NCBI RefSeq assembly: GCF_018598225.1
Contig: NZ_JAHESF010000058.1
Coordinates: forward strand, 1 to 33,679
Reading direction: 5' to 3'
Source: Chryseosolibacter histidinae
GTDB taxonomy: Bacteria > Bacteroidota > Bacteroidia > Cytophagales > Cyclobacteriaceae
Length of the DNA stretch: 33,679 bases
Position 1 is the first letter of the stretch. Every line of letters starts with the position of its first letter. Of the stretch, positions 8,971 through 28,432 are shown piece by piece. The position numbers and the translations under genes were made by a program. The notes below the pieces were generated by a model that ran no database searches, was not told the DNA's origin, and saw nothing but the letters and a program-made list of their open reading frames with translations.

Positions 8971-9044
8971 AGCTATTAGTTTTCCAGCTGCGCGCTTAGA
9001 GGAAATACCATCTCGAAGCTAGTGGCTCATAGCTCGTAACTATT
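8971..9044. repeat. Heptanucleotide repeat element A (AGCTnnT units)
   Basis: The gap between the pirin stop and the next ATG is almost filled by degenerate 7-nt units. On the right are AGCTAGT (9017), GGCTCAT (9024), AGCTCGT (9031) and AACTATT (9038-9044), the last touching the ATG at 9045. On the left are AGCTATT (8971), AGCTGCG (8986) and others. Left units and reverse-complemented right units share AGCTAT and AGCT blocks, so an imperfect hairpin is possible. Confidence 0.6.
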
Positions 9045-9338
9045 ATGAACATACTCGTCATCGGGCGACATCCGGATATTCAACAGACCATCCTGCGTTT
9101 GCTCAACAACCAGCCAGGCTGGCGCGCAGCCGGTGCGTTAACGGATGAAGAAGCTGTTGACATCTTCGCCGCACAACCCTTCGATGTGGTGCTGATCGGC
9201 GGAGGTGTGGATGAATCTTCCGAGGCGAAGCTTGCTATCGAATTTAAACACCGGAAACCTGATGTGAAGATCGTCCGGCATTTTGGCGGCGGAAGCGGAT
9301 TGTTATTTGCAGAGGTCATGGAAGCAATGAAAAAATAA
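9045..9338 (+). CDS. Degenerate CheY-like receiver-fold protein lacking the phosphoacceptor
   Basis: This 97-residue protein has the alternating strand/helix pattern of a response-regulator receiver: MNILVIGRHPDIQQTIL, then PFDVVLIGGG, then DVKIVRHFGGGSG. The acidic pair after strand 1 is replaced by GRHP, and the Asp expected at the end of strand 3 is replaced by glycines. No conserved Thr/Lys pair is apparent. The protein is also shorter than the usual 120 residues. It is therefore unlikely to be phosphorylated and may act as a protein-interaction module. It lies between two pirin genes, 75 bp after the first (repeat element A) and 26 bp before the second, so co-transcription with the second pirin is likely. 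The family name is uncertain. Confidence 0.65.
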   Translation: MNILVIGRHPDIQQTILRLLNNQPGWRAAGALTDEEAVDIFAAQPFDVVLIGGGVDESSEAKLAIEFKHRKPDVKIVRHFGGGSGLLFAEVMEAMKK

Positions 9339-9364
9339 AATCTCTCAGGAGAGATTTAACTTTT

Positions 9365-10234
9365 ATGAAAAACAGAACCGTCACTCATTTGTTATATGCC
9401 CATCCTTACGATATGGGAGGAATGCCGATCCGTCAGCCGTTGCCTACCAACAATGTGCAGCAGGTGGATCCGTTTCTGCTACTGCATCATGCGGATGTGG
9501 CGGTGCCCGAACATCTTGAGCCCGCGCATGCGGGCGTAGGGCCACATCCTCATCGCGGATTTTCGCCGGTCACTTTTATTTTTAAAGGTGCCGTGCATCA
9601 TCGCGATAGCAGGGGCAATAACAGCGTCGTGTATGCCGGTGGCGCACAGTGGATGAATGCCGGCATGGGCGTTATACACAGCGAGAGACCTTCGAATGAT
9701 ATTCACGATATCGGCGGAAGACAGGAGATCATCCAGCTGTGGATCAATACACCTTCGAAGCACAAGATGGACCAGCCTGCTTATTATCCTGTGCAGGCCG
9801 ATGACGTGCCGAAATTTGTGAGCGATGACAAGCTTGCTGCGGTGAATGTGTTTGCAGGTGACGTGCTGGGCATCAAGGGGCCGGTACCTTCGTTGTCGCC
9901 TGTCAATGCAGCAACGATTGAAGTGAAGAAAGGTGCAAGATTGGCGATTCCCGTGCCGGCCGATTTCAATGCTTTTCTTTACCTGCTCGATGGACAGATC
10001 ACCCTTGACGGCTATGGGATCATCGATGGATTGAACGCCGCTGTCTTCGCCCGTGACGGTGAGGGCATAAGCTTCACTGCGCTGCAAGATACGAGGTTGC
10101 TGCTGATGAGCGGAAAACCCCTGGATGAGGAAGTGGTGTCTCACGGTCCGTTTGTAATGAATACCCAGACGCAGATACTGGAAGCCATGCGCGATTACCA
10201 GATGGGTAAGATGGGAATCTTAATCGAAGATTAA
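9365..10234 (+). CDS. Pirin family protein (canonical type)
   Basis: This 289-residue bicupin non-haem iron protein has the canonical pirin motifs PHPHRGFSPVTFIFKGAVHH and GGAQWMNAGMGVIHSE. The expected iron ligands are His61, His63, His105 and Glu107. Length and N-terminus fit the family, with the ATG shortly after the preceding stop. Pirins act as quercetinases or as redox-sensing cofactors of transcription regulators. The role here is unknown, but the neighbouring second pirin, nitroreductase and OsmC genes point to oxidative or electrophile stress. A large inverted heptanucleotide repeat follows the gene. Confidence 0.93.
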   Translation: MKNRTVTHLLYAHPYDMGGMPIRQPLPTNNVQQVDPFLLLHHADVAVPEHLEPAHAGVGPHPHRGFSPVTFIFKGAVHHRDSRGNNSVVYAGGAQWMNAGMGVIHSERPSNDIHDIGGRQEIIQLWINTPSKHKMDQPAYYPVQADDVPKFVSDDKLAAVNVFAGDVLGIKGPVPSLSPVNAATIEVKKGARLAIPVPADFNAFLYLLDGQITLDGYGIIDGLNAAVFARDGEGISFTALQDTRLLLMSGKPLDEEVVSHGPFVMNTQTQILEAMRDYQMGKMGILIED

Positions 10235-10238
10235 ATAG

Positions 10239-10360
10239 AGTCCATAGTCCATAGTCGATGGTCCATAGCCGGAAGGACTAATATCAAGTCGGAGTTTTAC
10301 CCTTGATAGTTCACACGGTGCGTCCATGGAGCATGGTCTATCGACTATGGACTATGCACC
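10239..10360. repeat. Heptanucleotide inverted repeat element B (AGTCCAT units)
   Basis: The left arm (10239-10273) consists of five 7-nt units on the theme AGTCCAT. The right arm (10326-10360) consists of five units on its reverse complement, ATGGACT. A 17-bp stretch, CATAGTCCATAGTCGAT (10243-10259), is matched perfectly by 10340-10356 on the other strand. The third unit of both arms carries the same variant (AGTCGAT), so the arms are in register. The element could form a long hairpin with a loop of about 50-80 nt between the pirin and nitroreductase genes. Confidence 0.85.
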
Positions 10361-10406
10361 TTTGACTTTTCTGTCTTACTTTTAGGTCAGCAACCGTAAG
10401 TTATTT

Positions 10407-11003
10407 ATGGAGGTGCCAAAAGCTATGCAAAAATCAGCGGAGTTTGAATCACCCATCCTGGAAGTGATCCAGATGCGGAGAAGCAGGAGGGCGTATGCCG
10501 ATAAGCCTGTGGAGCAGGATAAGATCCAGTCGCTTTTCGAAGCTGCGCGGTGGGCGCCCTCCAGTGTGAACGAGCAGCCCTGGCTGTACCTGTACGCCAC
10601 CAAAGATCAGCCAGAGCTATTGGGAAAAATTTTCGATGCCCTGAATGACAGCAATAAAGTATGGGCAGGAAATGCGCCGCTGCTGATCGTAAGCCTCGCG
10701 CGGAAAAACTTTATCCGCAACGATAGGCCTAATGAGTCGGCACGTTATGATCTCGGCGCCGCCAATGCTTTTCTTTCGCTGCAGGCCGCGCACCTTGGTC
10801 TCAACGTGCACCAGATAGGCGGATTTCATGCGGCAAAGGCCATCGAGAACCTGAACATTCCCGATTACTATGAACCCGTGGTGATCATGGCCATCGGTTA
10901 TCCCGGCGACGCAGCAAACCTGCCGGAGAACCTCAAGCTTCGCGAGCTGGCACCACGTGAGCGATACGTACAACAGGCGTTTGTGATGAACCAAACTTTC
11001 TAA
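10407..11003 (+). CDS. Nitroreductase family protein (FMN-dependent NAD(P)H oxidoreductase)
   Basis: This 198-residue flavoprotein would reduce nitroaromatics, quinones or similar electrophiles. The FMN-binding start MRRSRRAYADKPV (about residue 24 on) and the segment FEAARWAPSSVNEQPWLYLY are diagnostic. DLGAANAFLSLQAAHLGLNV and VVIMAIGYPGD are the conserved later parts. The ATG at 10407 gives about 20 residues before the flavin motif, normal for the family. The stop TAA shares its last base with the ATG of the OsmC gene (TAATG), so the two are translationally coupled. The physiological substrate is unknown. Confidence 0.92.
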   Translation: MEVPKAMQKSAEFESPILEVIQMRRSRRAYADKPVEQDKIQSLFEAARWAPSSVNEQPWLYLYATKDQPELLGKIFDALNDSNKVWAGNAPLLIVSLARKNFIRNDRPNESARYDLGAANAFLSLQAAHLGLNVHQIGGFHAAKAIENLNIPDYYEPVVIMAIGYPGDAANLPENLKLRELAPRERYVQQAFVMNQTF

Positions 11004-11407
11004 TGGAAACCGGAGCGAATATCAAATGGGCATCTGCCATCATTGGCGCCGAGCAGTACAAAACAGAGATGATCCTCGACAGCCACTCGCTGATCGCCGA
11101 TGAGCCTATTGATAACGGAGGCAAGGATCTCGGTCCATCGCCCAGCGATTTTTTGCGCATGTCGCTGGCATCCTGTACCGCCATAACACTGCGCATGTAT
11201 GCCAACCGCAAGGGTTTTGACGTAAGCCAGATAGAAGTAAAAGTGCGGATGGAAGAAGTTGAAAACAAAACTGTTTTTCACCGGCAGGTAAACATCACCG
11301 GCAACATCGATGAGCAACAACGCAAGCGTATGCTGCACATTGCCAACGCCTGTCCCATTCATAAGATCCTGACAAATCCCATCGAGGTGCAGACACAATT
11401 TACGTGA
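11003..11407 (+). CDS. OsmC family protein (peroxide/stress-related)
   Basis: This 134-residue OsmC/Ohr-fold protein contains GPSPSDFLRMSLASCTAITL with Cys58 and IANACPIHKIL with Cys117. The two cysteines correspond to the peroxidatic/resolving pair used by OsmC and Ohr thiol peroxidases to reduce organic hydroperoxides. It overlaps the nitroreductase stop by one base, so they are one operon. Together with the upstream pirins the context is detoxification of oxidants or electrophiles. The exact substrate is not determinable. The length matches the shorter OsmC subgroup common in Bacteroidota. Confidence 0.9.
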   Translation: METGANIKWASAIIGAEQYKTEMILDSHSLIADEPIDNGGKDLGPSPSDFLRMSLASCTAITLRMYANRKGFDVSQIEVKVRMEEVENKTVFHRQVNITGNIDEQQRKRMLHIANACPIHKILTNPIEVQTQFT

Positions 11408-11410
11408 GAG

Positions 11411-11548
11411 AGTCCACAGACGACAGTCCACGGTCCACAGCCGTGCGGTGTTGTTTCGATTATTTCGGCTTCACTGCAAAATTGCTTGTTGTGATGGTCT
11501 GTGAGATCGCAGTCTCGGCCGTGGTCTGTCGACCGTGGTCCGTGGACT
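11411..11548. repeat. Heptanucleotide inverted repeat element C (AGTCCAC units)
   Basis: The left arm (11411-11445) and right arm (11514-11548) each hold five 7-nt units. The left theme is AGTCCAC and the right theme its complement GTGGACT. Of 35 arm positions most pair, and many mismatches are A/G differences that would be G-U pairs in RNA. The element fills the gap between the convergent OsmC and histidine-kinase genes, and its right end overlaps the kinase stop codon. It could act as a bidirectional terminator-like hairpin. Unit order parallels element B, but the seventh base is C instead of T. Confidence 0.82.
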
Positions 11549-13439
11549 AATCCGCCAGCTGTAACGTAAACGACACTTCTGTTCCCTCACCAAGTTTGCT
11601 GCGGATGCCGAACGTGCCACCGTTGCGTTCAATGAATTCTTTGCAGAGCATGAGACCAAGCCCTGTTCCTTTTTCCTGCTGCGTGCCTTCTTTCGTAAAA
11701 TGTGCCGACGATCCCACCACGGTCTCGATCTCATCCAGCGACATGCCAATGCCTGTATCCTGAATGGTAATGCAGCAATGGCGCTCCTGCTTTGAGGTGG
11801 AGATCACCAGGTGGTCGCCTATTTTTGAAAATTTGATTCCGTTCTGGATCAGGTTCCGCAACACCAGCTGCACCTGGTCGGGGTCTGCCCATACAGACAG
11901 ATCGCTGGAGATCTCTTTATGAAGTGTAATGCTTTTACGGTGCGCGTTCTCTTCCATCAGCTTGCAGGCTTCGTCGATGCATGACCGTATATCGATCTTG
12001 CACTTCTCGGTCTTGATACCCTCCATCTGGCTGAGTGCCCAGTTCAGCAGGTTCTCCAGCGTTCGTTGCGTCACATTCAGGTTGGCCCTGAGCTTGTTGG
12101 AAACGGTGATCATTTCACCGGTGGTCATCAGCTGTTTGGTGAACAGCTCCAGCAAGATCTGAAGGTTCGAGACCGGGCCGCGCAGGTCATGGCTGATCAC
12201 AGAAAACAATTTTGTCTGAAGCTGGTTCAATTGCTGAAGCTTTTCTGCCTGCGCCTGAATTTCTTCTTTCTGTTGCTCGATGGCCACATTCTTCGTGGCA
12301 AGGTCGCGGTTGGCCTGTTGCTGAATATTGCGCAGTCGCACAAGGAAAAAGATCAGGGCCACTAGCAGCAAGATGCCACCGAGCAGGAATGCCAGGAACC
12401 AGCGCTGGCTTCGTACCTGTTGCTGGTGCAAGGTGTTCTCGCTTTCCAGGAGCTTGATGGTGTGCTCTTTTCCTTCAAGCTCATAGAGCGATTGCATTTC
12501 CTGGATCTGTCCGCTTTTTTCAGCGTTGTAAAGGCTGTCCTTATACTGGCTGACGAGCTGAAGGTGCTGGATGGCTTCTTGGTGCCGGTTTGTTTCGAGG
12601 CAAAGCTCGGCCATCAGGGCGTGCCCTTTGATGAGCCACGTCAGGTTGCCGAGCTCATGGTTGATGTTGATGGATCTTTTCAGCAGACGCTCAGCTTGCG
12701 TCATGTTTTTGAGAACGTGCTCGTTCTGCGCCGCCAGAAAACAGGTTACGCCCAAAGCCCTCCGGTTTTTTACCAGCGTATCCAGCTGCAGGCTCTTGAA
12801 TGCATATTCTCTGCTTCGTTTGAAATCTTTCTGCTCGAAATAGATCCGCGCCTTTCTTCCAAACAAAATGCTGATGCTCGTTGAGTCGCCTGTACTTTCA
12901 AACAAAGCGATGCCTTTATCCGCATACTGCAAGGCAGAGTCGAGCAGGCCTGTCTCCGCCAGCATGAATGACATCTCGCGGTACGTTGTTGCCAGCATAC
13001 GTTTATCATTTTCCTGCATGCCAAGCAATAACGACTGGTTCATCAGCTCGCGCGCCTTGCTGAAATTTCCAAGCTCCACAAGAGTGCGGGCCACAGACAG
13101 CAGACTTTCAGACCATTGTTTTTTATGTGGGGAGTTTTCGAAGATCTTCAACGCTTTAAAACCATATTCAGTGCTTAACCTGAAGTTTGCCTTCACCCAG
13201 TACGCTTTGGATAATACATAATAGGAGTAGCCTTCATAGTAGACATCGCCACGCTCTACGGCCATGTTCAATGCCTTTTTGCTTAACAGGATGGCGGTGT
13301 CGGGATGGCTGAGATAAACACTGTAAGCACGCGACGTCAGGCGGGATAATTCATTGCCGGGCTGATCCTTTTGTGCAAAGCCAGAAGAGCAAAAGAATGT
13401 GATAGCGATACAAGCCGTAAGGAACCGGACTCCCTTCAT
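11547..13439 (-). CDS. Sensor histidine kinase with periplasmic TPR repeats
   Basis: This 630-residue membrane kinase has a signal peptide (to about residue 22) and a periplasmic region of TPR-type helical repeats (about residues 30-320). Examples are the repeats around YYVLSKAYWVKANFRLSTEY and GRKARIYFEQKDFKRSREYA. A coiled segment, one transmembrane helix (about 347-367) and a coiled coil to about 410 follow. The HisKA domain has SVISHDLRGPVSNL (His417). The ATPase domain has the N-box LRNLIQNGIKF (about 528-537), DTGIGM (561-566) and GTGLGL (591-596), so it appears catalytically intact. No response regulator is adjacent, so the partner is elsewhere. This TPR-kinase design is common in Bacteroidota. 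Confidence 0.93.
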   Translation of the reverse strand: MKGVRFLTACIAITFFCSSGFAQKDQPGNELSRLTSRAYSVYLSHPDTAILLSKKALNMAVERGDVYYEGYSYYVLSKAYWVKANFRLSTEYGFKALKIFENSPHKKQWSESLLSVARTLVELGNFSKARELMNQSLLLGMQENDKRMLATTYREMSFMLAETGLLDSALQYADKGIALFESTGDSTSISILFGRKARIYFEQKDFKRSREYAFKSLQLDTLVKNRRALGVTCFLAAQNEHVLKNMTQAERLLKRSININHELGNLTWLIKGHALMAELCLETNRHQEAIQHLQLVSQYKDSLYNAEKSGQIQEMQSLYELEGKEHTIKLLESENTLHQQQVRSQRWFLAFLLGGILLLVALIFFLVRLRNIQQQANRDLATKNVAIEQQKEEIQAQAEKLQQLNQLQTKLFSVISHDLRGPVSNLQILLELFTKQLMTTGEMITVSNKLRANLNVTQRTLENLLNWALSQMEGIKTEKCKIDIRSCIDEACKLMEENAHRKSITLHKEISSDLSVWADPDQVQLVLRNLIQNGIKFSKIGDHLVISTSKQERHCCITIQDTGIGMSLDEIETVVGSSAHFTKEGTQQEKGTGLGLMLCKEFIERNGGTFGIRSKLGEGTEVSFTLQLAD

Positions 13440-13804
13440 TAACGCCGATTAAAGACGTGGTAAGGTCGAAAAAATTTCCCAGCCAGCCATGCGCTCCTGA
13501 TATTTTGTTTGCCATGCAGAATGCAGTAAAAAAATTCTGAAAAATGTAAATATTCCATACACGTGGCATGGATTTTACCGCTTCCCTGTAAGAGGCTTGT
13601 TCATCTGAATAAACCGGAGCCGTCGGGTTTGAAATTTGCAGGGAATAAGTCAGGAATCGTGGATTTGCGAAGTGAGAATGACAGGCTGTTGAGATCTATC
13701 CGTGGTTCCCTATCCACCCGCAACGCTGGCCAACCGTCTTTTTTTGACTAAAGTAACACTAAATATATTTCTTCTGTGTTCTTTAAACATAACCCTGGAC
13801 TCTT
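13440..13804. other. Divergent intergenic region between histidine kinase and TonB-type receptor genes
   Basis: These 365 bp hold no convincing gene. Close to the receptor gene there is a plausible promoter with TTTG at 13743-13746 and TATATTTC at 13764-13771, 17 bp apart, about 35 bp before the GTG start. No heptanucleotide repeat or RNA gene was recognised. A 62-codon open frame at 13563-13751 looks like chance. Confidence 0.5.
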
Positions 13805-16078
13805 GTGAAAAGATTCTACGCTCTATTGTTCATGTTTTGTCCTGCGGTGTTAATGGCGCAGACCGTGGCCATTCGCGGCATGGTGAAAGACCGTGAAGGT
13901 GAGCGGCTTCCTTCAGCCAATATAGTGATGCTGCCAGACAGTGTTGTTGTATCAACAGGAATAGACGGCGAATTTTCAACAACCCTGAAAAGGGGGACAA
14001 AACAAATGGGTATTTCCTATACAGGTTATTCCACACTGTGGATATCTCTCCATGCTGCGCACGACACCGCCGTAACTTTTGTGCTCACACCAAAAATAAA
14101 TCAGCTGCGTGAAGTGACAGTGGTGGCAAACCGTTATTCACACGAGGACCTTGTACAGTCTACCCGAACCGGTACCAACACGCTTACACAGAAAGACATC
14201 AACGCCATACCGGTGTTGCTTGGAGAAGCAGATCCTATTAAAACGCTGCAGCTACTTCCTGGCATTGTAAAAGGTGTGGAAGGCAGCGCCGATCTTTTTG
14301 TGCGCGGCGGTGCAGCGGACCAGAACCTTGTGTTGCTTGACGGCGCACCCATCTACAACACCAGTCACCTCTTTGGATTCCTCTCGGTATTCAACCCCGA
14401 TGCGCTTGATAATGTCGAGTCTATCAATGGCGGATTCCCGGCCGAGTACGGCGGACGTTTGTCATCGATCCTCAACGTGACCAGCAACCAAAACATCCCT
14501 GATAAGACCCATGTCTCCGGAGATATCGGGCTGATCGCTTCACGTTTATATGTTGAGCAGCCCATTGTGAAGAACAAGGCAAGCTTCTGGGTAGCCGGTC
14601 GCAGAACGTATATTGACCAGGTAGTGAAAGCCATCAAAGAAGAGCTTCCCTACTTCTTTTATGACCTTAACGGGAAGCTGATCTTCAAACCTTCGCCTGC
14701 CGACCATGTTGAGGTGAGTCACTACAGCGGAGAGGACATTCTTGATATTGTTCGCGACCGCAACAATGACGGTCACGGTTTTCTTTCTTCTTATGCATCT
14801 GGTAATGCCAGCCAGTCGTTGAACTGGCGTCACAATGCACAACAGTGGACCGGCGACCTTTCACTGATGCGCACCCAGTACCGGTACAAGATCCAGAATG
14901 CTTTCGATGACAACAGCCTTGCAGCCATGTCGAACATCGAAGACTATGGCGCACGGCTTACCTTCCAGACAGATTCCATTCGCCGTAAGGCCACCATCAA
15001 GGCTGGTCTCGAGTGGACGAGGCATATCATCAGTCCCAACGTCATCAATTCTCAGGGCTCCATCGCCGAGCTGCTGGAGAGTCGGGCCACATCAGGGAAG
15101 GTTGCGCATGAGGTTGCGGCCCACCTCGAGCAGGAGTGGTCATTGACAAACCGCTGGAAACTCAATGCCGGTTTCCGTGGATCGTTGGCCCTTGTTCATA
15201 ACAAGCAATACTTCGTGCCGGAGCCCCGCATCTCCGCGCGTTATGTACTGGCAGAAGACAGGGCTATCAAGCTGAGCTACTCGCGCATGTCGCAATACCT
15301 GCACCGCATCTCTAACTCTGCTATCTCTACGCCTACCGATATCTGGTATCCGGTGACGAGCCGCATCGAGCCACAGACCTCACACCAGGTGTCAGCGGCA
15401 TGGCAGCGGTTTGTAAGATCTGAAGATGTATTCATCAGCGTGGAGGGTTATTACAAACTGATGAACAGCCTGATCGGATACGAAGAAGGTACGAACCTGT
15501 TCTTCAATACCGATTTCGAGTCGAAGCTGATCCAGGGAAAGGGCCAGGCTTACGGACTGGAATTTCTGCTGCGCAAAGAGTCTGGAAAATTCACAGGCTG
15601 GATCAGTTACACCTTGTCGTGGTCGTGGCGTAAGTTCGGTGGCATCAACAACGGTGAATGGTTCCGTGCACGTTACGACCGCCGGCACAACGCTGCTATC
15701 GTGGGGCAATACACTTTTGCCAGGCGCTGGGCAGCCTCCTTTGTATGGGAATTTATTTCGGGCTCGAGGTTTACACCCGTCATCGGGCAATATGCCACGC
15801 TGGCGCCAACACTCACCGGCGTAGACCTGATCCCTATTTATTCAAAGATCAACGGTGTTAAACTTGCCGATGCGCACAGGCTCGACGTGGGCATCAAGTT
15901 CATGAGCAAGCCGGGCCATAGAATCCAATGGGAATGGTTTGCCGGCGCTTACAACGCTTACAACCGCGCCAGTCCCGTGGGCATCATGATCGAACAACGC
16001 AGAGACGGTTCGCTGCACTACACGCAACCTGGTCTCTTCGGTTTTCTTCCGTTTGTCAGCTATGGCTTTAAACTTTGA
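13805..16078 (+). CDS. TonB-dependent receptor with CarboxypepD_reg-like N-terminal domain
   Basis: This 757-residue outer-membrane receptor starts at a GTG at 13805, where a signal peptide begins directly (MKRFYALLFMFCPAVLMAQ). Residues about 20-105 form a carboxypeptidase-regulatory-like beta-sandwich. The TonB plug follows: NAIPVLLGEADPIKTLQLLP, then DLFVRGGAADQNLVLLDGAP and FPAEYGGRLSSILNV. The rest is beta-barrel, ending FLPFVSYGFKL with a C-terminal hydrophobic/aromatic beta-signal. It is followed 4 bp later by a DUF4249 lipoprotein gene, a pairing seen often in this phylum. By analogy with SusC/SusD the pair may import a nutrient, but the substrate is unknown. Confidence 0.92.
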   Translation: MKRFYALLFMFCPAVLMAQTVAIRGMVKDREGERLPSANIVMLPDSVVVSTGIDGEFSTTLKRGTKQMGISYTGYSTLWISLHAAHDTAVTFVLTPKINQLREVTVVANRYSHEDLVQSTRTGTNTLTQKDINAIPVLLGEADPIKTLQLLPGIVKGVEGSADLFVRGGAADQNLVLLDGAPIYNTSHLFGFLSVFNPDALDNVESINGGFPAEYGGRLSSILNVTSNQNIPDKTHVSGDIGLIASRLYVEQPIVKNKASFWVAGRRTYIDQVVKAIKEELPYFFYDLNGKLIFKPSPADHVEVSHYSGEDILDIVRDRNNDGHGFLSSYASGNASQSLNWRHNAQQWTGDLSLMRTQYRYKIQNAFDDNSLAAMSNIEDYGARLTFQTDSIRRKATIKAGLEWTRHIISPNVINSQGSIAELLESRATSGKVAHEVAAHLEQEWSLTNRWKLNAGFRGSLALVHNKQYFVPEPRISARYVLAEDRAIKLSYSRMSQYLHRISNSAISTPTDIWYPVTSRIEPQTSHQVSAAWQRFVRSEDVFISVEGYYKLMNSLIGYEEGTNLFFNTDFESKLIQGKGQAYGLEFLLRKESGKFTGWISYTLSWSWRKFGGINNGEWFRARYDRRHNAAIVGQYTFARRWAASFVWEFISGSRFTPVIGQYATLAPTLTGVDLIPIYSKINGVKLADAHRLDVGIKFMSKPGHRIQWEWFAGAYNAYNRASPVGIMIEQRRDGSLHYTQPGLFGFLPFVSYGFKL

Positions 16079-16082
16079 TTCC

Positions 16083-19828: not shown

Positions 19829-19831
19829 ATC

Positions 19832-20520: not shown

Positions 20521-20689
20521 CAACTTCATCGGGCCATTTGCGGACAGTTCATTGGTTGAGCTTCCGTTTGCAATCGAGCTCATCATCATGTAACACTCAG
20601 TCCCTCCAAGCAAACAAGCAGGCATAGTTTTTTTCGGTAACAAGTCCGCCACGTTTTAGTCGCGACTGTTTAACTTGTTTCAACCCGGA

Positions 20690-21103: not shown

Positions 21104-21817
21104 CTATCCTACGGCAAAATGATAACCTACCCCTTTTATGGTGATGATCTCGATGGAAGGATCTTCTTTCAGGTAGTCACGTAATTTTGTGATGTAAACG
21201 TCCAGGTTCCTGGAGTTAAAAAAAGAGTCGTCGCCCCACAGGCGCATGAGGATATCTTTTCTGTTGGTGGTCCCGTTCCGGTTTTCAGACAGGATAGCCA
21301 GCAGGTTGGCTTCGCGATGCGAAAGTTTTCGAACCTGTGTGCCCGTCTTCAGCTCGTACCTGAGCATGTTGAACTCGTATCGCCCGATGGTAACGCATTC
21401 CTGCACAGGTGTGTTCTTTTGCTGCTGCCGAAGCTGGAGCAGGTTGTTGATGCGCACAATGAGCTCCTCCATGCTGAACGGCTTACGGATATAATCATTG
21501 CCGCCCGACTCGAATCCTTTCAGCAGGTCTTCGGTCTGCACCTTGGCGGTAACAAAGATGATCGGCACGTAAGGATTTACCTGACGGATATCTTTGGCGA
21601 TGGAGTAACCATCCCGGATGGGAAGCATGATGTCGAGCACACAGATGTCCGGTTTTGTTTTATCGAATGCGGCGGCCACCTGCTGCCCGTCACTGAGCAT
21701 CGTCACTTCGAAGTCGCGGCTTTCAAGGCTTTCCTTAACGATCCTTCCCAGGAACGGCTCGTCTTCCACGTAAAGTACTCTGGTCTTCATCCCGTTTATC
21801 GTTTTATCATCCGGCAT
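21104..21817 (-). CDS. OmpR-family response regulator (winged-helix)
   Basis: This response regulator has 237 residues from ATG 21817, or 228 from ATG 21790, where family similarity begins (MKTRVLYVEDEP). The receiver is intact: acidic pair EDE, phosphoacceptor in CVLDIMLP (Asp62 in the long form), VTAK and RKPF. The C-terminal winged helix (about residues 140-235) has the OmpR pattern (LSHREANLLAILSENRNG, LWGDDSFFNSRNLDVYITKL, IKGVGYHF). The longer start overlaps the kinase gene by 11 bp, so translation is probably coupled. The overall sequence is RprY-like. TTAAC repeats in the divergent promoter region (23439-23474) are candidate binding sites. Confidence 0.94.
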   Translation of the reverse strand: MPDDKTINGMKTRVLYVEDEPFLGRIVKESLESRDFEVTMLSDGQQVAAAFDKTKPDICVLDIMLPIRDGYSIAKDIRQVNPYVPIIFVTAKVQTEDLLKGFESGGNDYIRKPFSMEELIVRINNLLQLRQQQKNTPVQECVTIGRYEFNMLRYELKTGTQVRKLSHREANLLAILSENRNGTTNRKDILMRLWGDDSFFNSRNLDVYITKLRDYLKEDPSIEIITIKGVGYHFAVG

Positions 21818-23282: not shown

Positions 23283-23346
23283 CCTTCACATTTCAATTTA
23301 ACTTTCATTCAGATCTTAACTTCTCATCATTCTTCACTGCCTCAGT

Positions 23347-23401
23347 TCGTAGCGACTAAATCGTACTTCGTACCTCGTAAATCGTACTTCGCAATCGTAC
23401 C
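23347..23401. repeat. Heptanucleotide repeat element D (TCGTACT units)
   Basis: Eight units run without a break: TCGTAGC (23347), a divergent unit GACTAAA, TCGTACT (23361), TCGTACC (23368), TCGTAAA (23375), TCGTACT (23382), a 6-nt TCGCAA and TCGTACC (23395-23401). The 13-mer AAATCGTACTTCG recurs exactly 21 bp apart (23358 and 23379), that is three units. No facing inverted arm was found. It lies in the divergent region between the histidine kinase and GLPGLI genes. Confidence 0.8.
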
Positions 23402-23438
23402 TCAAAAGTACGCCCTTTTTGACATTACGGGTTCGCTT

Positions 23439-23474
23439 TTAACGTTAATTAACATTCCTTTCAGAACTATTAAC
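23439..23474. promoter_or_regulatory. TTAAC direct repeats, candidate response-regulator binding sites
   Basis: TTAAC occurs at 23439, 23449 and 23470, that is 10 and 21 bp apart and so on one face of the helix. The middle one sits in the palindrome GTTAATTAAC (23444-23453). OmpR/PhoB/PhoP regulators bind direct repeats with about 11-bp spacing, and an OmpR-family regulator is encoded by the divergent operon. A weak -7 box TACATTTA follows at 23497-23504, before the GLPGLI gene. Confidence 0.45.
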
Positions 23475-23522
23475 ACGCCCCGCACATCCCTAAGCGTACA
23501 TTTACTCCGGAACATTTAACCA

Positions 23523-24278
23523 ATGAAAATCTCATCTACTATGAAACGAATATTGATCCTCCTGGGTGTGCTGGTGTGTCTGGCAGCAGCGCAGGTTGTT
23601 TTGGGCCAGACCGAAGGCCACATTATTTATGAAGTAAAGGTCAACCTGCATCGCACCCTGCCGAAAGAGCGTGAGGAGATGAAGGCAATGATCCCTGAGT
23701 TCAGAACAAATCAGGATCAGCTTTTTTTCAACGCCAGCGAGTCGTTATACAAACCCGTTGAAGAAGACGAGGATGAGGATGCCGATATGGGTGGTGGAGG
23801 CATGCGCATGCGGATCATGCGGCCCAACAACATTATATACATTGATCAGAACACTTCGCGAAGAGTGATGGAGCAGGATTTTATGGGAAAGAAATACCTG
23901 ATCGAAGACTCTCTGAAGATCATGGCCTGGAAATTCGGCAGTGAAACCAAAGAAGTGAAAGGATATCTCTGCCGGCAGGCGATGTTCTATAACGAAGAAC
24001 GCAAGCAGAACGTAGTTGCCTGGTACACTGACAAGCTTCGGCCGTTCCTCGGTCCCGAGGGTTTCAATACACTTCCTGGCGCGGTGCTCGAAGTGAATGT
24101 CAACGATGGGGAAAGGATCATCTCTGCGAAGAGCATCACGCTGCGGGCGCTGAAGAAGAACGAGTTGAAAGTACCATCTGACGGCACGAAGATCACGCAG
24201 GAGGAGTTTCGCAAAAAAGTCAGCGAACAAATGGAACGCCGTCGTGCCGAAGGCGCCAATGTGATCATCCGCAATTAA
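23523..24278 (+). CDS. GLPGLI family protein with Gly/Arg insertion
   Basis: This secreted protein has 251 residues, or 245 if it starts at the second ATG (23541), which begins the signal peptide MKRILILLGVLVCLAAAQVV. The family signature appears as GPEGFNTLPGAVLEVNV (residues 177-193), preceded by the typical KEVKGYLCRQA and NVVAWYTDKL. GLPGLI proteins are restricted to Bacteroidota and often stand next to outer-membrane barrels. Function is unknown. Unusual here is an acidic run (residues 80-88) immediately followed by GGGGMRMRIMRP (90-101). The latter closely resembles the C-terminus of the barrel encoded next door. The C-terminal region is highly charged. Confidence 0.88.
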   Translation: MKISSTMKRILILLGVLVCLAAAQVVLGQTEGHIIYEVKVNLHRTLPKEREEMKAMIPEFRTNQDQLFFNASESLYKPVEEDEDEDADMGGGGMRMRIMRPNNIIYIDQNTSRRVMEQDFMGKKYLIEDSLKIMAWKFGSETKEVKGYLCRQAMFYNEERKQNVVAWYTDKLRPFLGPEGFNTLPGAVLEVNVNDGERIISAKSITLRALKKNELKVPSDGTKITQEEFRKKVSEQMERRRAEGANVIIRN

Positions 24279-24301
24279 AACAACCTTACACGCAAAGTCA
24301 T

Positions 24302-24394
24302 GGTTCCCGCTGATCGCGCAGATAAACGTAGAAATATTCTCTGCTGATTCGGCGAATTCCGAAGGTCATCCCAGCAGCGCGATCTGCGGGAACC
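24302..24394. repeat. Inverted intergenic repeat element E (ATCTGCGGGAA type)
   Basis: The left arm 24302-24319 and right arm 24377-24394 are inverted copies with one mismatch in 18 (GGTTCCCGC, one differing base, GATCGCGC). Between them further fragments such as GCAGATAAACG and CTGCTGATTCGGCG repeat the same words. This wording (CTGATCGCGCAGATAAACG / ATCTGCGGGAA) resembles an intergenic repeat seen in many Bacteroidota genomes. It lies between the GLPGLI and barrel genes and may terminate or attenuate transcription between them. Confidence 0.72.
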
Positions 24395-24436
24395 GGGAAA
24401 ACATCCGCGTAACAACTGTTAAGAATCTAGATACTG

Positions 24437-27226
24437 ATGAAAAAATTCTTACTCATTCTGTTTACAGCAGTGAGCATGGTAGCTACTGCCCAGAAATTCA
24501 CCATCAAAGGCCAGCTCACCGATACGCTCAATGCGCCGTTGCCCTCGGCCACAGTGCTTCTGCTCAACCCCAAAGATTCGTCGCTGGTGAATTTCGGCGC
24601 CGGTGATGCGCAGGGAAACTTTTTGATCAGGAATGTGAGTCCTGGCGAGCATCTTTTTAAAGTTACCTTCCTCGGCTTCAGGCCCTACACAAAAAAGATC
24701 AGCACACCTGATAACGGTACCGTTATTGACCTTGGCAGGATCAGGATGCAATCTGCGAGCAGCGAGCTGGAAGCGGTGGAGATCGCAGGCGAAAGAGCAC
24801 CCGTAACCGTCAAGCAGGATACCATCGAGTTCAACGCAGGTTCGTTCAAAACGAAACAGAACGCCGTAGTGGAAGACCTGTTGAAGAAACTGCCGGGTGT
24901 GGAAGTAGACAGCGATGGAAAGATCACCGCGCAGGGCGAGCAGGTGAGGCGTGTGATGGTGGATGGGAAGAACTTCTTCGGCTCCGATCCCAAGCTTGCC
25001 ACAAGAAACCTTCCTGCCGACGTAGTGGATAAAGTGCAGGTGTATGACAAAAAATCAGACCAGGCCGTGTTCTCCGGTATCGACGATGGACAGCGTGAGA
25101 AGACCATCAACCTTTCGCTGAAACCTGAAAAGCGGAATGGCGCGTTCGGTACACTGATGGCTGGCGCCGGAACCGATGACCGTTTCCAGGTACGTGCAAA
25201 CCTCAATCGCTTCAGCAAGGGAAGGCAGCTGTCGTTTCTCGGCATGGGCAACAACGTCAACGAGCAGGGTTTCTCCATGGACGACTACATGAATTTCACG
25301 GGAGGTTCACAACAGATGGCTGCGGGAGGCCCTGTGAGGATGCAGATCAGCAGCGACAACAATAACAATAGTGTTCCGCTGAACCTGGGCGGAAGGGCCA
25401 ACGGCATCATGACCAACTATGCCGGAGGTGTTAACCTGAACAACGAGTTCAATAAAAAAACAGAATTGAACGGAAATTACTTCTATAATTATCTCGATCA
25501 TGCCAAGGATCAGACCACGCTTCGGCAGAATTTTTTACCCGATGGCAATTTTACTTTCAACCAGAACAGCCGGCAGCGCAACTCGAACTCGAACCACCGC
25601 GCCAACTTTACGCTCGATCATCAGCTCGATTCAGCCAATTCGCTGAAGCTGACGGGCAACGTCACGTATAACCAGACCGATGCAGAGACCACCAGCACCA
25701 GCGAGAACATCACGCCTGGCAATGTTGTGCAGAACGAAAGTCAACGGCTCACACTTTCTACCGGCGACAACACTACGCTGAACTCCACGCTGCTGTGGCG
25801 TCATAAGTTCAGAAAGAAGGGTAGAACCTTTTCAACCAACCTGCAATTGGGCGTCAGCCAGAACGAACGCGAGGGGCTGCTCGATGCCGTGAACAATTTC
25901 TATGGTGATGATCCAAGGGAGGAGATCCTGAAACAAACCAGCCTGCAGACCACAGATTACAAAAGTTACAGTGGAACATTCTCTTACACAGAGCCATTGG
26001 GAGGGCGCAAATACCTCGAAGCCAATTATAACTTCAGGCAGAACCTGAACGACGTGCGCAAAACTGTATACGATGTGAATGCAGACCAGTCTGTCTTCAA
26101 TGAGAATCTCAGCAACAGCTATACCAGCGACTACCAGTATCACCGCGCGGGACTTAACTTCAGGATGAACAAAAGCAAATACAACGTAGTGGTTGGTGGA
26201 AGTGTTCAGCGCACGTATCTGGAAGGCGACCTCATTACCAGGGATGTTAAGATCGACAGGTCGTACCAGAATGTGCTTCCCGCCGTGCGGTTCAACTATG
26301 ATTTTTCCAACACGCGGCACCTGCGCTTCGACTACGAAACCTCCGTTCAGGAGCCAACCATCCAGCAGCTGCAGCCTGTGATCGACAATAGCGATCCCCT
26401 GAACCTCTATGTGGGCAACCCCCAGCTACGGCCCACCTATTCTCAAAGCTGGCGATTGAACTTCACCACCTTTGATCCGGCAACGTTCATCAGCTTCTTC
26501 ACCTTTGTGAATGTGGACTACACTACCAACGCCATCACCAACGCACAAAATATCGATAGCAACCTGGTGCGCACCACAACGCCGGTGAACGTAGACAACA
26601 GCATGAGCGTAAGTGGAAATGCCAACTTCAGCTTCCCCATTCAAAAGCTCAAGAGTCGCTTTAGCCTGGGGGGCGATTACAGGAATCAGCGGAGCATCAA
26701 CCTGCTCAACGAAGCTGCCAATACCATTCACCAGAAGACGCTGGGCGGAAACCTTCGTTATAACTACCGGTACAACGACATCTTCGACCTGAGCCTGAGC
26801 GCAGACCTCGATCATCAGCTCACCAGCTATGAGTTCAACCAGCCGGATCAGACGTTCATCAATAGCACCTATACGGCGGAGTCTAACCTTACGCTTCTGA
26901 AAAATTACCAGGTGAGCACCAGCTTCGAGTACCTCGAGTACGAGAACCGTAGCACAAACTTCAGCCAGGCCATACCGTTGCTGAACCTCTCCGTTTCAAG
27001 GTTCGTGTTGAAGAACAAGGCCGGCGAGCTGAAGCTTGCGGTGAACAACCTGCTCGACAAAGCACTGGGCATCAGCCAAACGGCAAGCATCAATTACCTC
27101 GAACGCCAAACCACCAACTCACTGGGCAGATATTTTATGCTCAGCTTCACCTACGCCCTCAACAAGCAGCTGAATCCCATGGGGATGAGAAGGGGTGGTG
27201 GAATGATCAGGATTATGAGGCCTTAA
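24437..27226 (+). CDS. Outer membrane beta-barrel protein with CarboxypepD_reg-like domain (TonB-receptor-related)
   Basis: This 929-residue outer-membrane protein has a signal peptide (MKKFLLILFTAVSMVATAQ) and a CarboxypepD_reg-like domain (about residues 20-110). A plug-like section follows: DTIEFNAGSFKTKQNAVVED, LLKKLPGVEVDSDGKITAQG, VMVDGKNFFGSDPK. A long barrel of the OMP_b-brl_3 type ends GRYFMLSFTYALNKQL. After this last strand comes a glycine/arginine extension finishing GGGMIRIMRP, so the usual C-terminal aromatic beta-signal is not at the very end. The upstream GLPGLI gene carries almost the same motif. No TonB box was identified with confidence. The pair is likely controlled by the divergent two-component system. 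Confidence 0.9.
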   Translation: MKKFLLILFTAVSMVATAQKFTIKGQLTDTLNAPLPSATVLLLNPKDSSLVNFGAGDAQGNFLIRNVSPGEHLFKVTFLGFRPYTKKISTPDNGTVIDLGRIRMQSASSELEAVEIAGERAPVTVKQDTIEFNAGSFKTKQNAVVEDLLKKLPGVEVDSDGKITAQGEQVRRVMVDGKNFFGSDPKLATRNLPADVVDKVQVYDKKSDQAVFSGIDDGQREKTINLSLKPEKRNGAFGTLMAGAGTDDRFQVRANLNRFSKGRQLSFLGMGNNVNEQGFSMDDYMNFTGGSQQMAAGGPVRMQISSDNNNNSVPLNLGGRANGIMTNYAGGVNLNNEFNKKTELNGNYFYNYLDHAKDQTTLRQNFLPDGNFTFNQNSRQRNSNSNHRANFTLDHQLDSANSLKLTGNVTYNQTDAETTSTSENITPGNVVQNESQRLTLSTGDNTTLNSTLLWRHKFRKKGRTFSTNLQLGVSQNEREGLLDAVNNFYGDDPREEILKQTSLQTTDYKSYSGTFSYTEPLGGRKYLEANYNFRQNLNDVRKTVYDVNADQSVFNENLSNSYTSDYQYHRAGLNFRMNKSKYNVVVGGSVQRTYLEGDLITRDVKIDRSYQNVLPAVRFNYDFSNTRHLRFDYETSVQEPTIQQLQPVIDNSDPLNLYVGNPQLRPTYSQSWRLNFTTFDPATFISFFTFVNVDYTTNAITNAQNIDSNLVRTTTPVNVDNSMSVSGNANFSFPIQKLKSRFSLGGDYRNQRSINLLNEAANTIHQKTLGGNLRYNYRYNDIFDLSLSADLDHQLTSYEFNQPDQTFINSTYTAESNLTLLKNYQVSTSFEYLEYENRSTNFSQAIPLLNLSVSRFVLKNKAGELKLAVNNLLDKALGISQTASINYLERQTTNSLGRYFMLSFTYALNKQLNPMGMRRGGGMIRIMRP

Positions 27227-27236
27227 TTAAAAAAGA

Positions 27237-27439
27237 AGTCAGAAGCCAGGAGTCAGGAGCCAGAATGGTGGTGTTAACGGTAAGTGTGCTGCTCGTAGGT
27301 TTAGGTTAACCAGCCAGGAAATGGCCAGCAAGCATCTTCCATGGCATCCCGCAGTCACTTTCTTAAGACACCGGTACGATGAATCTCACGCCGTACCCTC
27401 CTGACTCCTTGCTCCTGACTTCCGGCTTCTAGCTCCTTG
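27237..27439. repeat. Heptanucleotide inverted repeat element F (AGTCAGG units)
   Basis: The left arm (27237-27264) consists of four units: AGTCAGA, AGCCAGG, AGTCAGG and AGCCAGA. The right arm (27398-27439) consists of six units on the complementary theme CTCCTGA (CTCCTTG, CTTCCGG, CTTCTAG and so on). About 27 bp of the arms pair with few mismatches (27237-27263 against 27408-27434). The intervening 130 bp hold no gene. The element fills the gap between the barrel and glycerophosphodiesterase genes. Confidence 0.8.
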
Positions 27440-27471
27440 CTCCCCTCCCGAACGAGGACTATCTTCGCCTC

Positions 27472-28398
27472 ATGAAATTCTCCTTTACTATCTTCCTTAT
27501 TTCCGCCATCTTCATCCAGGTGAATGCACAAACTCCTTCCAAACCCATTTATATTCCCAAGTTTGATCTGCAGGGCCATCGTGGTGCCCGCGGGTTGAAG
27601 CCTGAGAATACCATTCCGGCATTCCTTGTTGCGCTCGATACCGGCGTTACTACACTCGAGCTGGACCTGGCCGTGACCAAAGACAAACAGCTCGTTGTTT
27701 CGCATGAGCCGTGGATGTCTGCCGCTATTTGTTCTGAACCCGACGGCACACCTGTCACAGCGCGTGAGGAAAAAAAATTCAACATCTTTCAGATGTCGTA
27801 TGATGAAGTAAAGCAGTTCGATTGTGGCTCGCGTGGGAACCCAAAATTTCCGGAGCAGCAAAAAATGAAGGTTTACAAGCCGCTGCTGTCAGACGTTATT
27901 GCAGCCGTGGAAGATCACATCAGGAACCGTACACAATACGAGGTTGACTATAACATCGAGATCAAAAGCTCTCCAGAGGGCGACAACAAATTCCATCCTT
28001 CACCTCAGGAATTCTCTGACCTGGCGTATAACCTGATCGATCAATACCTGCCGTGGGAGCGGGTGGTGATCCAATCGTTTGATTTTCGCGTGCTGAAATA
28101 CTGGCATGAGAAATACCCCGCAGTGCGGCTGGCAGCGCTGGTGGAGAACACCAAAACAGTGTCAAGCAACCTCGAGCAGCTGGGCTTCACACCTTCCGTA
28201 TACAGCCCCTATTTTAAATTGATCTCCGCTGAGGATGTTCAGTACCTGCACCAGCACAAGGTCAGGGTCATTCCCTGGACGGTGAACGAAACCGACGACA
28301 TCAAAAAGATGCGGCACATGGGTGTGGATGGATTGATCACCGATTACCCTAACAAGGCCGCCCAGCTTGGCCTCGGCATCAAACGCCCCAAAAACTAA
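27472..28398 (+). CDS. Glycerophosphodiester phosphodiesterase family protein (secreted)
   Basis: This 308-residue GDPD-family enzyme would hydrolyse glycerophosphodiesters to glycerol-3-phosphate and an alcohol. It has a signal peptide (MKFSFTIFLISAIFIQVNAQ) and the diagnostic active-site motif QGHRGARGLKPENTIPAF (His36, Arg37, Glu45). TLELDLAVTKD (metal ligands Glu63 and Asp65) and VVSHEP (His78, catalytic) follow. Later family blocks NIEIKSSPEG, VVIQSFDFRVL, VIPWTVNETDDIKKM and GVDGLITDYPN are all present, so it should be active in the periplasm. It is flanked by repeat elements F and G and is probably monocistronic. Confidence 0.94.
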   Translation: MKFSFTIFLISAIFIQVNAQTPSKPIYIPKFDLQGHRGARGLKPENTIPAFLVALDTGVTTLELDLAVTKDKQLVVSHEPWMSAAICSEPDGTPVTAREEKKFNIFQMSYDEVKQFDCGSRGNPKFPEQQKMKVYKPLLSDVIAAVEDHIRNRTQYEVDYNIEIKSSPEGDNKFHPSPQEFSDLAYNLIDQYLPWERVVIQSFDFRVLKYWHEKYPAVRLAALVENTKTVSSNLEQLGFTPSVYSPYFKLISAEDVQYLHQHKVRVIPWTVNETDDIKKMRHMGVDGLITDYPNKAAQLGLGIKRPKN

Positions 28399-28404
28399 TT
28401 TCAG

Positions 28405-28432
28405 ACTTTAAACTTCAAACTTTAAACTTTTC
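28405..28432. repeat. Heptanucleotide repeat element G (ACTTTAA units)
   Basis: Four consecutive 7-nt units occur: ACTTTAA (28405), ACTTCAA (28412), ACTTTAA (28419) and ACTTTTC (28426-28432). They lie directly before the -7 box of the kinase promoter. No facing inverted arm was found. Confidence 0.65.

Follow-up and report, generated by a model that had tools for sequence, protein, structure and literature searches.

Facing pairs of degenerate heptad arrays, often directly behind stop codons, recur in the genome of Chryseosolibacter histidinae and hint at a heptad-reading protein

The genome of Chryseosolibacter histidinae seems to contain hundreds of doublets in which two blocks of roughly four degenerate 7-nt units (heptads) face each other, often directly behind a stop codon; the families of units vary from one species to another. 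The pattern hints at an undescribed protein able to recognise 7-letter arrays and perhaps involved in ending transcripts. The stretch analysed, a contig of 33,679 nt (hereafter the window), contains six intergenic gaps that a sequence-only reading had parsed into tandem heptads. That observation proved real in part, and its interpretation is partly supported. Our tentative explanation, to which we would give a little less than an even chance, is that the gaps hold REPIN-like dispersed doublets with putative protein-read heptad ends, kept as terminator-like elements at gene 3' ends.

The period of 7 claimed for the six gaps is real. Scoring the best lag-7 match count in 21 positions against 500 dinucleotide shuffles gave 18/21 for the gaps at 10235-10406 and 28399-28451, 17/21 for 27227-27471, and 16/21 for 11408-11546 and 23283-23522, with 0/500 shuffles reaching the score in each; the gap at 8970-9044 scored 13/21 (p=0.006). 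The remaining seven gaps tested in the window lacked period 7 (p 0.36-0.98). A sample of 833,679 bases, about 10% of the 8.04-Mb genome (contig C45 1-400 kb, C56 1-220 kb, C11 1-180 kb, and the window), contained 169 runs with at least 19/28 lag-7 matches, against 0-10 runs at lags 4-6 and 8-13 and 1-15 at each other lag up to 30 that is not a multiple of 7; lags 14, 21 and 28 gave 79, 53 and 21 runs. An intergenic excess at lag 7, which the earlier reading had named as its check, is thus present, and its observation that no array was noticed inside coding sequence also stands for the most part, with 165 of the 169 runs lying mostly outside genes as called by a purpose-written codon-score script.

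The further claim that each gap has its own unit was not borne out: a few families recur genome-wide and the unit is specific to the family, not to the locus, the arrays at 10239 and 11411 being two states of one family (A). With hand-seeded family models, trained on the same 834 kb in which the arms were counted, we obtained 252 de-overlapped arms in 833,679 bases, 243 of them intergenic, which extrapolates to about 2,400 in the genome. Many arms consist of four 7-nt units in direct succession, all from one family, and on the inward-reading strand the unit has the form RGTNNNN. The four-unit preference is clear in families A (42/64 arms), C (21/36), D (21/26) and E (16/29); family I has 4/7, and four-unit arms are rarer in B (16/46), F (10/28) and G (4/16), where the preference is weak or absent. 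An earlier set of 283 arms, in which the near-palindromic family B was double-counted and which the 252 arms correct, underlies the figures below on unit likeness, constrained unit positions and commonest units, variant units and their indices, the 14 unit features, partner pairing, spacer relatives and structure, outer-end A-runs, target-site duplication, gaps of at least 150 nt and intrinsic terminators.

The elements of the window are the following:

8970..9044, minus strand: weak AG-heptads (AGTTACG AGCTATG AGCCACT AGCTTCG), read by eye and covered by no family model
10239..10266, plus strand: family A arm of 4 units (AGTCCAT AGTCCAT AGTCGAT GGTCCAT), variant unit at index 3, score 31.6, starting 4 nt after the pirin gene's stop codon (gene end 10234)
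10333..10353, minus strand: family A partner arm with 3 or more units, score 28.2, variant at index 2
10239..10353, no strand: the complete family A doublet, 115 nt, in a gap of 172 nt (57 nt without the element)
11411..11438, plus strand: family A arm of 4 units, variant at index 2, score 30.7, 3 nt behind the OsmC stop codon
11521..11548, minus strand: family A partner arm of 4 units, variant at index 3, score 29.1, sharing 2 nt with the stop codon of the convergent gene for a histidine kinase
23361..23395, minus strand: family D array (RGTACGA / TTTACGA) of 5 units, score 31.0, in a divergent gap away from any stop codon, no partner arm detected
27237..27264, plus strand: family E arm (AGTCAGA AGCCAGG AGTCAGG AGCCAGA), score 32.0, 10 nt after the outer-membrane protein gene's stop codon
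27400..27427, minus strand: family E partner arm of 4 units, score 33.3
27237..27427, no strand: the complete family E doublet, 191 nt, in a gap of 245 nt (54 nt without the element)
28401..28428, minus strand: family B array (AGTTTAA AGTTTGA AGTTTAA AGTCTGA), score 33.8, also readable on the plus strand as ACTTTAA, set 2 nt beyond the stop codon of the GDPD gene
29463..29623, no strand: element of similar layout with 9-nt units (AGGATTTNN ... AAATCCTNN), arms read by eye

What had been taken for single arrays at 10239-10353, 11411-11548 and 27237-27427 proved to be arrays paired in inverted orientation, with fixed polarity; the 23361 and 28401 arrays fall outside this plan of a pair behind a stop codon. 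Read on the minus strand, the 28401 array has its inner end towards the stop, opposite to the usual polarity. The element with 9-nt units begins a few nucleotides from a stop codon (29462), and 0/300 shuffles matched it at lag 9. At the Rfam gathering threshold, tRNA was the sole known family in the window.

Across the sample, neighbouring arms less than 250 nt apart were oriented +- in 74 cases, ++ in 11, -- in 11 and -+ in 2, and 65 of the 74 convergent neighbours belonged to one family. Spacers measured 63-109 nt in family C, mostly 74-96 nt in A, and 5-39 nt in F and in five of six D elements. No relative at E 1e-3 turned up for 53 of 59 spacers within the 834 kb covered, roughly 10% of the genome. 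This agrees with the earlier view that the gaps are not copies of one ordinary mobile element. Transposon copies were rejected, the spacers being mostly unique in this sample, and the related internal sequence expected of a MITE was likewise lacking in most copies. A few family A elements share a common core; when family A elements were oriented by their variant units, the spacers failed to align in a whole-element alignment. Spacer structure resembled that of control pieces from other intergenic DNA (mean z -0.47/-0.59 for 33 spacers and -0.45/-0.21 for 40 controls, with 7 below -2 in each set), and target-site duplication gave a weak signal in 67 elements (mean best match 2.37 vs 1.99 shuffled, p=0.03).

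The position of the arms at gene ends is distinctive. Among 136 arms facing a gene 3' end, 85 had their outer end -10 to +15 nt from the stop codon, against 10/106 outer ends facing a 5' end, 3/136 inner ends facing a 3' end and 88/2052 (4%) under random placement. Arms occur in 133 of 419 gaps of 30-1500 nt, namely in 36/72 convergent, 73/258 co-directional and 24/89 divergent gaps; the contrast is smaller among gaps of at least 150 nt (17/34, 66/155 and 24/74), and the convergent excess is partly due to gap length. The earlier reading had dismissed a pure terminator role because the gaps are of all three orientations. That dismissal is weakened, since arms abut stop codons and occupy half of the convergent gaps, a share whose contrast shrinks at 150 nt and above. 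By a crude prediction, intrinsic terminators were fewer where arms are present, both at convergent gene ends (8/66 with arms vs 20/70 without, p=0.02) and in the pooled set (15/136 vs 50/236, p=0.016); the co-directional difference was not significant (7/70 vs 30/166, p=0.17). The arms themselves were rejected as intrinsic terminators, with no T-run excess behind them and AAAA at 5.8% of 155 outer ends vs 6.6%. All that the outer ends show is a bias towards A over their final few bases.

Within arms, the units follow unusual regularities. Family A (246 units) has C at position 4 (1.00), G at position 2 (0.98) and A at position 6 (0.98), with A/G at position 1 and C/T at position 7. Four-unit arms carry exactly one variant unit in 38/48 cases in family A (expected 23.0), 19/27 in C (expected 11.6) and 19/24 in D (expected 10.8). 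Among 14 unit features, picked after inspection of the arms, four were too regular (A position 5 under two definitions, C position 5 and D position 2), four were clumped by arm (A position 7, E position 4, B position 6 and F position 5) and six were neither. In 10 of the 19 paired family A elements one arm has its single variant at index 2 and the other at index 3; one had equal indices, two combined index 3 with 1, and six had none or two variants in an arm (10 vs 1, p=0.012). The two ends of a family A doublet are therefore distinguishable. This index rule was found in family A only, being absent in C and not clear in G351, a genome from another family of the order.

Among the small number of syntenic gaps that could be compared, elements differed by presence or absence or by a switch of family. 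The family A doublet at 10239..10353 is missing from the 63-nt gap of the congener G002, and the family E doublet at 27237..27427 from the corresponding gaps, which measure 69 nt in G001 and 84 nt in G002; the 84-nt gap holds, as read by eye, a hairpin and a T-run. Where the window has the 28401 array, G001 has a different heptad array. Without their elements, these two gaps of the window would measure 57 and 54 nt, as compared with 63 nt and 84/69 nt in the congeners. The lengths suggest that element and spacer arrived together and led us to reject the spacer as ancestral intergenic DNA. The family A pattern has 694 matches here (overlaps counted), 0 and 1 in two congeners, and is present in 17 of 148 genomes of the order, the source genome included. 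In G351, 12/12 two-armed loci were convergent (4 of them chosen knowing the polarity), 4/6 arms in three loci adjoin the stop of a long frame, and 22/28 arms had one variant, a figure biased by picking loci with a pattern that permits a variant unit. Across 148 genomes of the phylum, 108 matched four tandem AGTNNNN units, with a backwards control often equal or higher. The matches listed are heptads of many units, so period 7, not AGT, is the feature found in many genomes. A further genome, G336, has a long perfect AGTCCAT array. The lag-7 excess in G168 and G248 is modest (15 and 18 runs vs at most 9 at lags 4-6 and 8-14), and one locus compared between them shows two 7-nt indels along with indels of different lengths.

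Our comparison with known systems draws on the parts of the cited reports available to us. The basic layout is already known from the GGGAATC repeats of Xanthomonas, which have a degenerate 7-nt unit with a four-unit mode, are 89-93% intergenic, lie on average 28 nt from the upstream ORF, form 70 and 75 convergent pairs, are rare in divergent gaps and differ between related species (PMC4692102). The four-unit mode (here in A, C, D and E), the convergent pairs and the 3'-proximal, intergenic position are shared with the present doublets. Xanthomonas GGGAATC and Nostoc GGGGA(C/T)T, however, were studied as one G-rich unit in each genome and are read as G-quadruplexes (PMC4692102), whereas this genome has several families without G-tracts, the one-variant rule, distinguishable family A ends and patchy sharing across genera. 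As to the earlier statement that no locus-specific set like this was known from Bacteroidota, heptamer arrays had been noted in Bacteroidetes (PMC4679880), and the paired architecture was found neither in the available part of that report nor, for Bacteroidota, in the literature searched. Those TAACTGA repeats, intergenic heptamer arrays that include five Bacteroidetes, are mixed with other heptamers and show 7-nt indels between strains; they differ in being an exact heptamer and, in the Beggiatoaceae genome, in lying mostly upstream of start codons with only one indirect repeat (PMC4679880). REPINs and BIMEs are extragenic, occur in several families of many copies and have short, conserved, inverted ends flanking a spacer that is less conserved and has a preferred length (PMC3116915), and a REP is a short palindrome tagged GTAG or CGTC (PMC3733652). 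Inverted ends are likewise usual here (74 +- vs 2 -+, with 22 tandem), but the ends are heptad arrays and the spacers are mostly unshared. The atypical flanking structures of the Bacteroidetes TnpAREP subclass 2.6, dispersed structured copies near a Y1 gene, offer another likeness (PMC6006769); the heptad arms were not found systematically beside the Y1 genes examined. A link to RAYT (Y1 HUH) genes was not found, as 20 stretches with 23 Y1 domains had two lag-7 arrays within 1 kb, one of them AT-rich, and 29 IS200-like loci (93 kb) had five. In the source genome, one of four Y1 matches has a family D pair about 0.5 kb away. No transposase could be tied to the arms at the Y1 and IS200-like loci examined.

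We propose that each arm is an array of binding sites for a protein whose subunits would contact 7 bp each and which would need about four contiguous sites. A biochemical precedent may be seen in the ribbon-helix-helix ParB protein omega of pSM19035, whose parS consists of contiguous non-palindromic 7-bp sites bound by one dimer each and which needs four or more such adjoining sites to be fully active (PMC9499535, in the part available). The omega sites are plasmid centromere and operators of sequence WATCACW, and the likeness is a functional analogy only. The doublets would have been spread by some enzyme or copying process, and those behind a stop codon may be retained as factor-dependent, bidirectional 3'-end or terminator-like elements that sometimes replace intrinsic terminators.

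Alternatively, the host may have evolved bidirectional protein roadblocks or factor-dependent terminators, selected independently at each gene end and never mobile. The stop-codon position, fewer predicted intrinsic terminators, mostly unique spacers and the scarcity of decayed intermediates in the family A score distribution (71 arms at a score of 16 and 61 at 22) speak for such sites; the abundance of family A here against its near absence in the congeners and patchiness in distant genera, the gaps larger by about one element (172 vs 63 nt; 245 vs 84 and 69 nt) and the distinguishable family A ends speak against them, and we regard this origin as unlikely, if worth serious attention. Templated addition is quite improbable. 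In that scheme a telomerase-like or retron-like enzyme would use a short RNA template to add 7-nt units to 3' ends while DNA is being repaired or inserted; its errors would give the degenerate positions, and 3' extension of both ends the inward polarity. The fixed period, the purine-rich strand polarity inward, the mostly unique spacers and units resembling independent draws from the family spectrum would fit, but neither one variant unit per arm nor opposite indices at the two ends is predicted.

Slipped-strand repeats that later drifted are highly unlikely, despite the two 7-nt indels in the G168/G248 locus, the perfect array of G336 and the closer likeness of family B units within arms (0.82 vs 0.75). 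Adjacent units are no closer than units of other arms in A (.769/.764), C (.747/.744), D (.769/.807) and F (.753/.760), which argues against slippage, as do the fixed polarity, number and site of the arms; units of E and G are slightly closer within arms. The earlier exclusion of simple slippage therefore holds for A, C, D and F, and family B may contain some. A structural role, also suggested earlier, is not favoured, and RNA or cruciform hairpins under selection for arm-arm pairing are very unlikely. Polarity does make the arms complementary, partner arms of family A agree in their position 7 C/T state (p=0.001) and the five family E pairs give p=0.016 in one of three registers, but in C, D, F and B true partner arms match each other no more closely than shuffled arms do, 9 of the 74 convergent neighbours belong to different families, and the opposite indices of family A variants break in-register pairing. 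G-quadruplexes, as proposed for Xanthomonas and Nostoc, have next to no chance of accounting for these arms. The repeats of those genera share the convergent, 3'-proximal layout with four-unit arms (PMC4692102), but the commonest units listed for the eight families contain no run of three G, so the number of units per arm cannot be explained here by a need for four G-tracts; judged by sequence, this reading is already refuted for these families.

If the doublets are protein-read ends as we propose, they might belong to a class of gene 3'-end elements that spans the phylum and has escaped recognition until now. In this class, paired convergent four-heptad arrays would be read by a cooperative protein contacting 7 bp per subunit and would work as bidirectional factor-dependent terminators or insulators, the reader and its unit family being replaced jointly inside a genus in the manner of a recognition code; the Xanthomonas (GGGAATC) and Nostoc (GGGGAYT) repeats would then be members, not G-quadruplex devices. 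We think this broader reading rather doubtful. Without G-tracts, the G-quadruplex account of the four-unit rule falls for this genome, and the same families open the idea of a protein reader to direct testing. Syntenic gaps that have switched family can serve as a natural experiment in how bacteria replace gene ends. With arms in 133 of 419 gaps and about 2,400 arms by extrapolation, the putative reader could touch a large share of the transcripts.

Period 7, which the sequence-only reading had claimed for six gaps of the window, exceeded dinucleotide shuffles in all of them: the lag-7 score was reached by none of 500 shuffles in five gaps, and the gap at 8970-9044 gave p=0.006. In the seven other window gaps tested in this way, period 7 did not rise beyond the shuffled level. 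The genome of Chryseosolibacter histidinae comprises 8.04 Mb in 122 contigs, the window being contig C76; a search with one protein placed Ohtaekwangia koreensis nearest among named isolates, beside uncultured relatives, the genome itself being perhaps absent from that search. Using a threshold of at least 19/28 matches, we counted 169 lag-7 runs in 833,679 sampled bases of this genome (parts of contigs C45, C56 and C11, and the window), with 0-10 runs for each of the control lags 4-6 and 8-13, and 79, 53 and 21 runs at lags 14, 21 and 28. The intergenic placement was borne out, with 165 of the 169 lag-7 runs lying mostly outside called genes. Of C56:1-220000, only 64% is called coding, compared with 81-83% in the sampled parts of C45 and C11, which may be an artefact of the gene caller. 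The heptad arrays are real, widespread and rule-bound.

The private unit proposed for each gap gave way to a few unit families, each recurring at many loci, which we described with hand-seeded and then refined weight matrices.

Heptad unit families and their consensus units
Family A: RGTCCAY
Family B: RGTTTAA
Family C: RGTTRCC
Family D: RGTACGA
Family E: AGTMAGG
Family F: RGTAWTC
Family G: AGTAGGC
Family I: AGATMTG

Weight matrices from two further seeds, H and J, produced no clear family. At score 20, the reversed-sequence control contained no match for families A, C, D, E, F, G and I, and 28 vs 83 for family B, whose units are AT-rich and near-palindromic. With overlaps removed and the family B threshold raised, the final set comprises 252 arms (runs of units) in the sampled bases, 243 of them intergenic. 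In two other genomes, G133 and G168 (stretches L143, L145 and L191), arrays carry AGT every seventh base with a nearly free triplet (for example AGTAGAC AGTAGGC AGTGAGC AGTTAGC), constant and variable positions being set apart more sharply there than in the window genome. A long perfect AGTCCAT array in another genome (G336:C13:77463-77546; 12 units in the overlapping matches listed) differs from the degenerate four-unit arms and hints that there are true slippage arrays of this unit as well.

Exactly four units make up 42/64 arms of family A, 21/26 of D, 21/36 of C, 16/29 of E and 4/7 of I, and less frequently those of B (16/46), F (10/28) and G (4/16). Of neighbouring arms separated by less than 250 nt, 74 pairs are convergent, 22 tandem and 2 divergent; the convergent neighbours share their family in 65/74 cases, and the 9 mixed-family pairs keep the polarity. 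The spacer within these doublets measures 63-109 nt in family C (13 pairs), 66-198 nt in A (18 pairs; 74-96 nt in 12), 9-39 nt in F (11 pairs) and 5-26 nt in 5/6 pairs of D. Its GC content (0.447) is about the intergenic level, its structure is no greater than in other intergenic DNA, and for 53/59 pairs it has no relative within the sampled DNA. A few family A doublets have a common core containing CCGGTATCC or CCGTCATCC (C45:5040-5293, C56:24971-25175); this core, which has relatives at other places in the genome, is a second repeat family inside the heptad arms.

The contention that the arms are not simple slippage products held for families A, C, D and F, in which adjacent units are no closer than units of different arms; in B they are more alike (0.82 vs 0.75 across arms), in E and G slightly so. 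Family A has near-fixed positions G2, C4 and A6 and two-state positions 1 (A/G) and 7 (C/T). Among 14 unit features, picked after the arms had been inspected, four are much more regular inside four-unit arms than expected. In 38/48 such arms of family A, a GTCGA unit occurs exactly once, almost always as unit 2 or 3 (23.0 arms expected from column shuffles), with the same outcome under a wider definition; exactly one RGTTACC occurs in 19/27 arms of family C (11.6 expected) and exactly one non-RG unit in 19/24 of family D (10.8 expected). Position 7 of A, 4 of E, 6 of B and 5 of F cluster by arm, in the manner of subfamilies; the remaining six features are neither too regular nor clustered. Across the two arms of 19 family A elements, the indices of the variant unit are opposite in 10, equal in 1, and 3 and 1 in 2, while 6 elements have none or two variants in one arm; the tendency to opposite indices was not seen in family C. 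The C/T state at position 7 of family A agrees across both arms (p=0.001, 16 elements).

Where the outer end of an arm faces a gene 3' end, 85/136 arms start at -10..+15 nt around the end of the stop codon, compared with 3/136 inner ends facing a 3' end, 10/106 outer ends facing a 5' end and 88/2052 random placements; in several arms a TAG stop supplies the AG with which the first unit opens. Arms occupy 36/72 convergent, 73/258 co-directional and 24/89 divergent gaps. This contrast shrinks when only gaps of 150 nt or more are counted (17/34, 66/155 and 24/74, respectively), so part of it is gap length. Intrinsic terminators are predicted at 15/136 gene ends with arms and 50/236 without (p=0.016), that is, at 8/66 vs 20/70 convergent ends and, not significantly, 7/70 vs 30/166 co-directional ends. 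No T-run was found at the arms.

A 21-position family A pattern (one mismatch allowed, overlapping matches counted) has 694 matches in this genome, 0 and 1 in two congeners, and 26, 15, 5, 2, 2 and 1 in six other genera among 59 genomes searched, this one included; many of the 26, in genome G026, are the variant unit AGTCGGC. It is present in 17/148 genomes drawn from the order (again including this one). In G351, from another family of the order, 28 arms were examined in 16 loci: the two-armed loci are convergent in 12/12 cases, four of them picked with prior knowledge of convergence, and 4/6 arms in three loci lie directly at the stop of a long frame. In the congeners G001 and G002, part of the synteny around the window persists. 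The OMP-GDPD gap, which spans 245 nt in this genome (191 nt of element and a remainder of 54), lacks the doublet in G002 (84 nt, with a hairpin then eight T, as read by eye) and in G001 (69 nt); the promoter-like TATCTTCG ahead of GDPD is shared by this genome and G002. Between pirin and nitroreductase, the gap measures 172 nt here (element 115, remainder 57) vs 63 nt in G002. On the 3' side of GDPD stand AAACTTT heptads here and other heptads in G001; none were seen in G002. Between G168 and G248, whose DNA is about 90% identical, arrays are few (15 in 600 kb and 18 in 560 kb, with control lags up to 9). In the few aligned loci, read by eye, arms are replaced by another family, two single-unit 7-nt indels lie beside other indels, and one doublet has substitutions solely at tolerated positions.

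At 29463-29623 of the window, a similarly laid-out element with a 9-nt unit (AGGATTTNN / AAATCCTNN) starts behind a stop codon, and a similar AGGATT string adjoins heptads at C56:76839-76972; heptads may belong to a broader class of elements. An imperfect palindrome at 24279-24436 (GTTCCCGCTGATCGCGCAGA ... CTGCGCGATCTGCGGGAAC) is perhaps another dispersed element. The Porph-OMP gap is just 32 nt in G001 and 22 nt in G002.

The closest description (PMC4692102) concerns GGGAATC repeats in Xanthomonas and GGGGAYT repeats in Nostoc, read there as G-quadruplexes whose function was not found. As here, the Xanthomonas repeats mostly have four units, lie near the upstream ORF and form convergent pairs (70 and 75 in two genomes). 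Unlike them, the present families contain no G-tracts, which calls for a different cause of the four-unit rule. Heptamers as such had already been observed in Bacteroidetes, as TAACTGA repeats (PMC4679880); for paired heptad arms in Bacteroidota, no account was found in the open-licence library searched, outside which most subscription papers fall. A putative reader would step 7 bp over about four contiguous sites, sense orientation and tolerate two-state positions. By analogy, it could be of the omega kind, an RHH protein of plasmid pSM19035 that places one dimer per 7-bp site and is fully active only with four or more contiguous sites (PMC9499535); omega covers only the first of these properties, the 7-bp steps over four sites.

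Dispersal on the model of REPINs (PMC3116915) is suggested by the doublet layout, the two distinguishable ends in family A, the patchy spread and the gaps larger than in congeners. The mostly unshared spacers, a weak target-site duplication signal and the missing link to Y1 transposase domains (of the RAYT type), beside which heptad arms were not systematically found, indicate no particular mover. One family D doublet (stretch L111, C63:12373-15603) has a Y1-transposase-like match, in a 287-aa frame, at a distance of about 0.5 kb; none of the other three Y1 matches of the genome has such a neighbour. The arms might instead be regulatory sites that evolved in the host at gene ends and were never mobile, which we regard as rather unlikely. 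The gap-length effect raised our estimate for such host sites slightly and lowered that for REPIN-like doublets by a similarly small step, other estimates being unchanged.

REPIN-like doublets whose heptad ends are read by a protein and which have been kept at gene 3' ends are the best explanation, one to which we give a little short of an even chance. A present role at gene 3' ends is suggested by the position at stop codons, the fewer predicted intrinsic terminators and the hairpin, terminator-like, that the empty gap of G002 contains; as the elements have no T-run, termination there would have to be factor-dependent.
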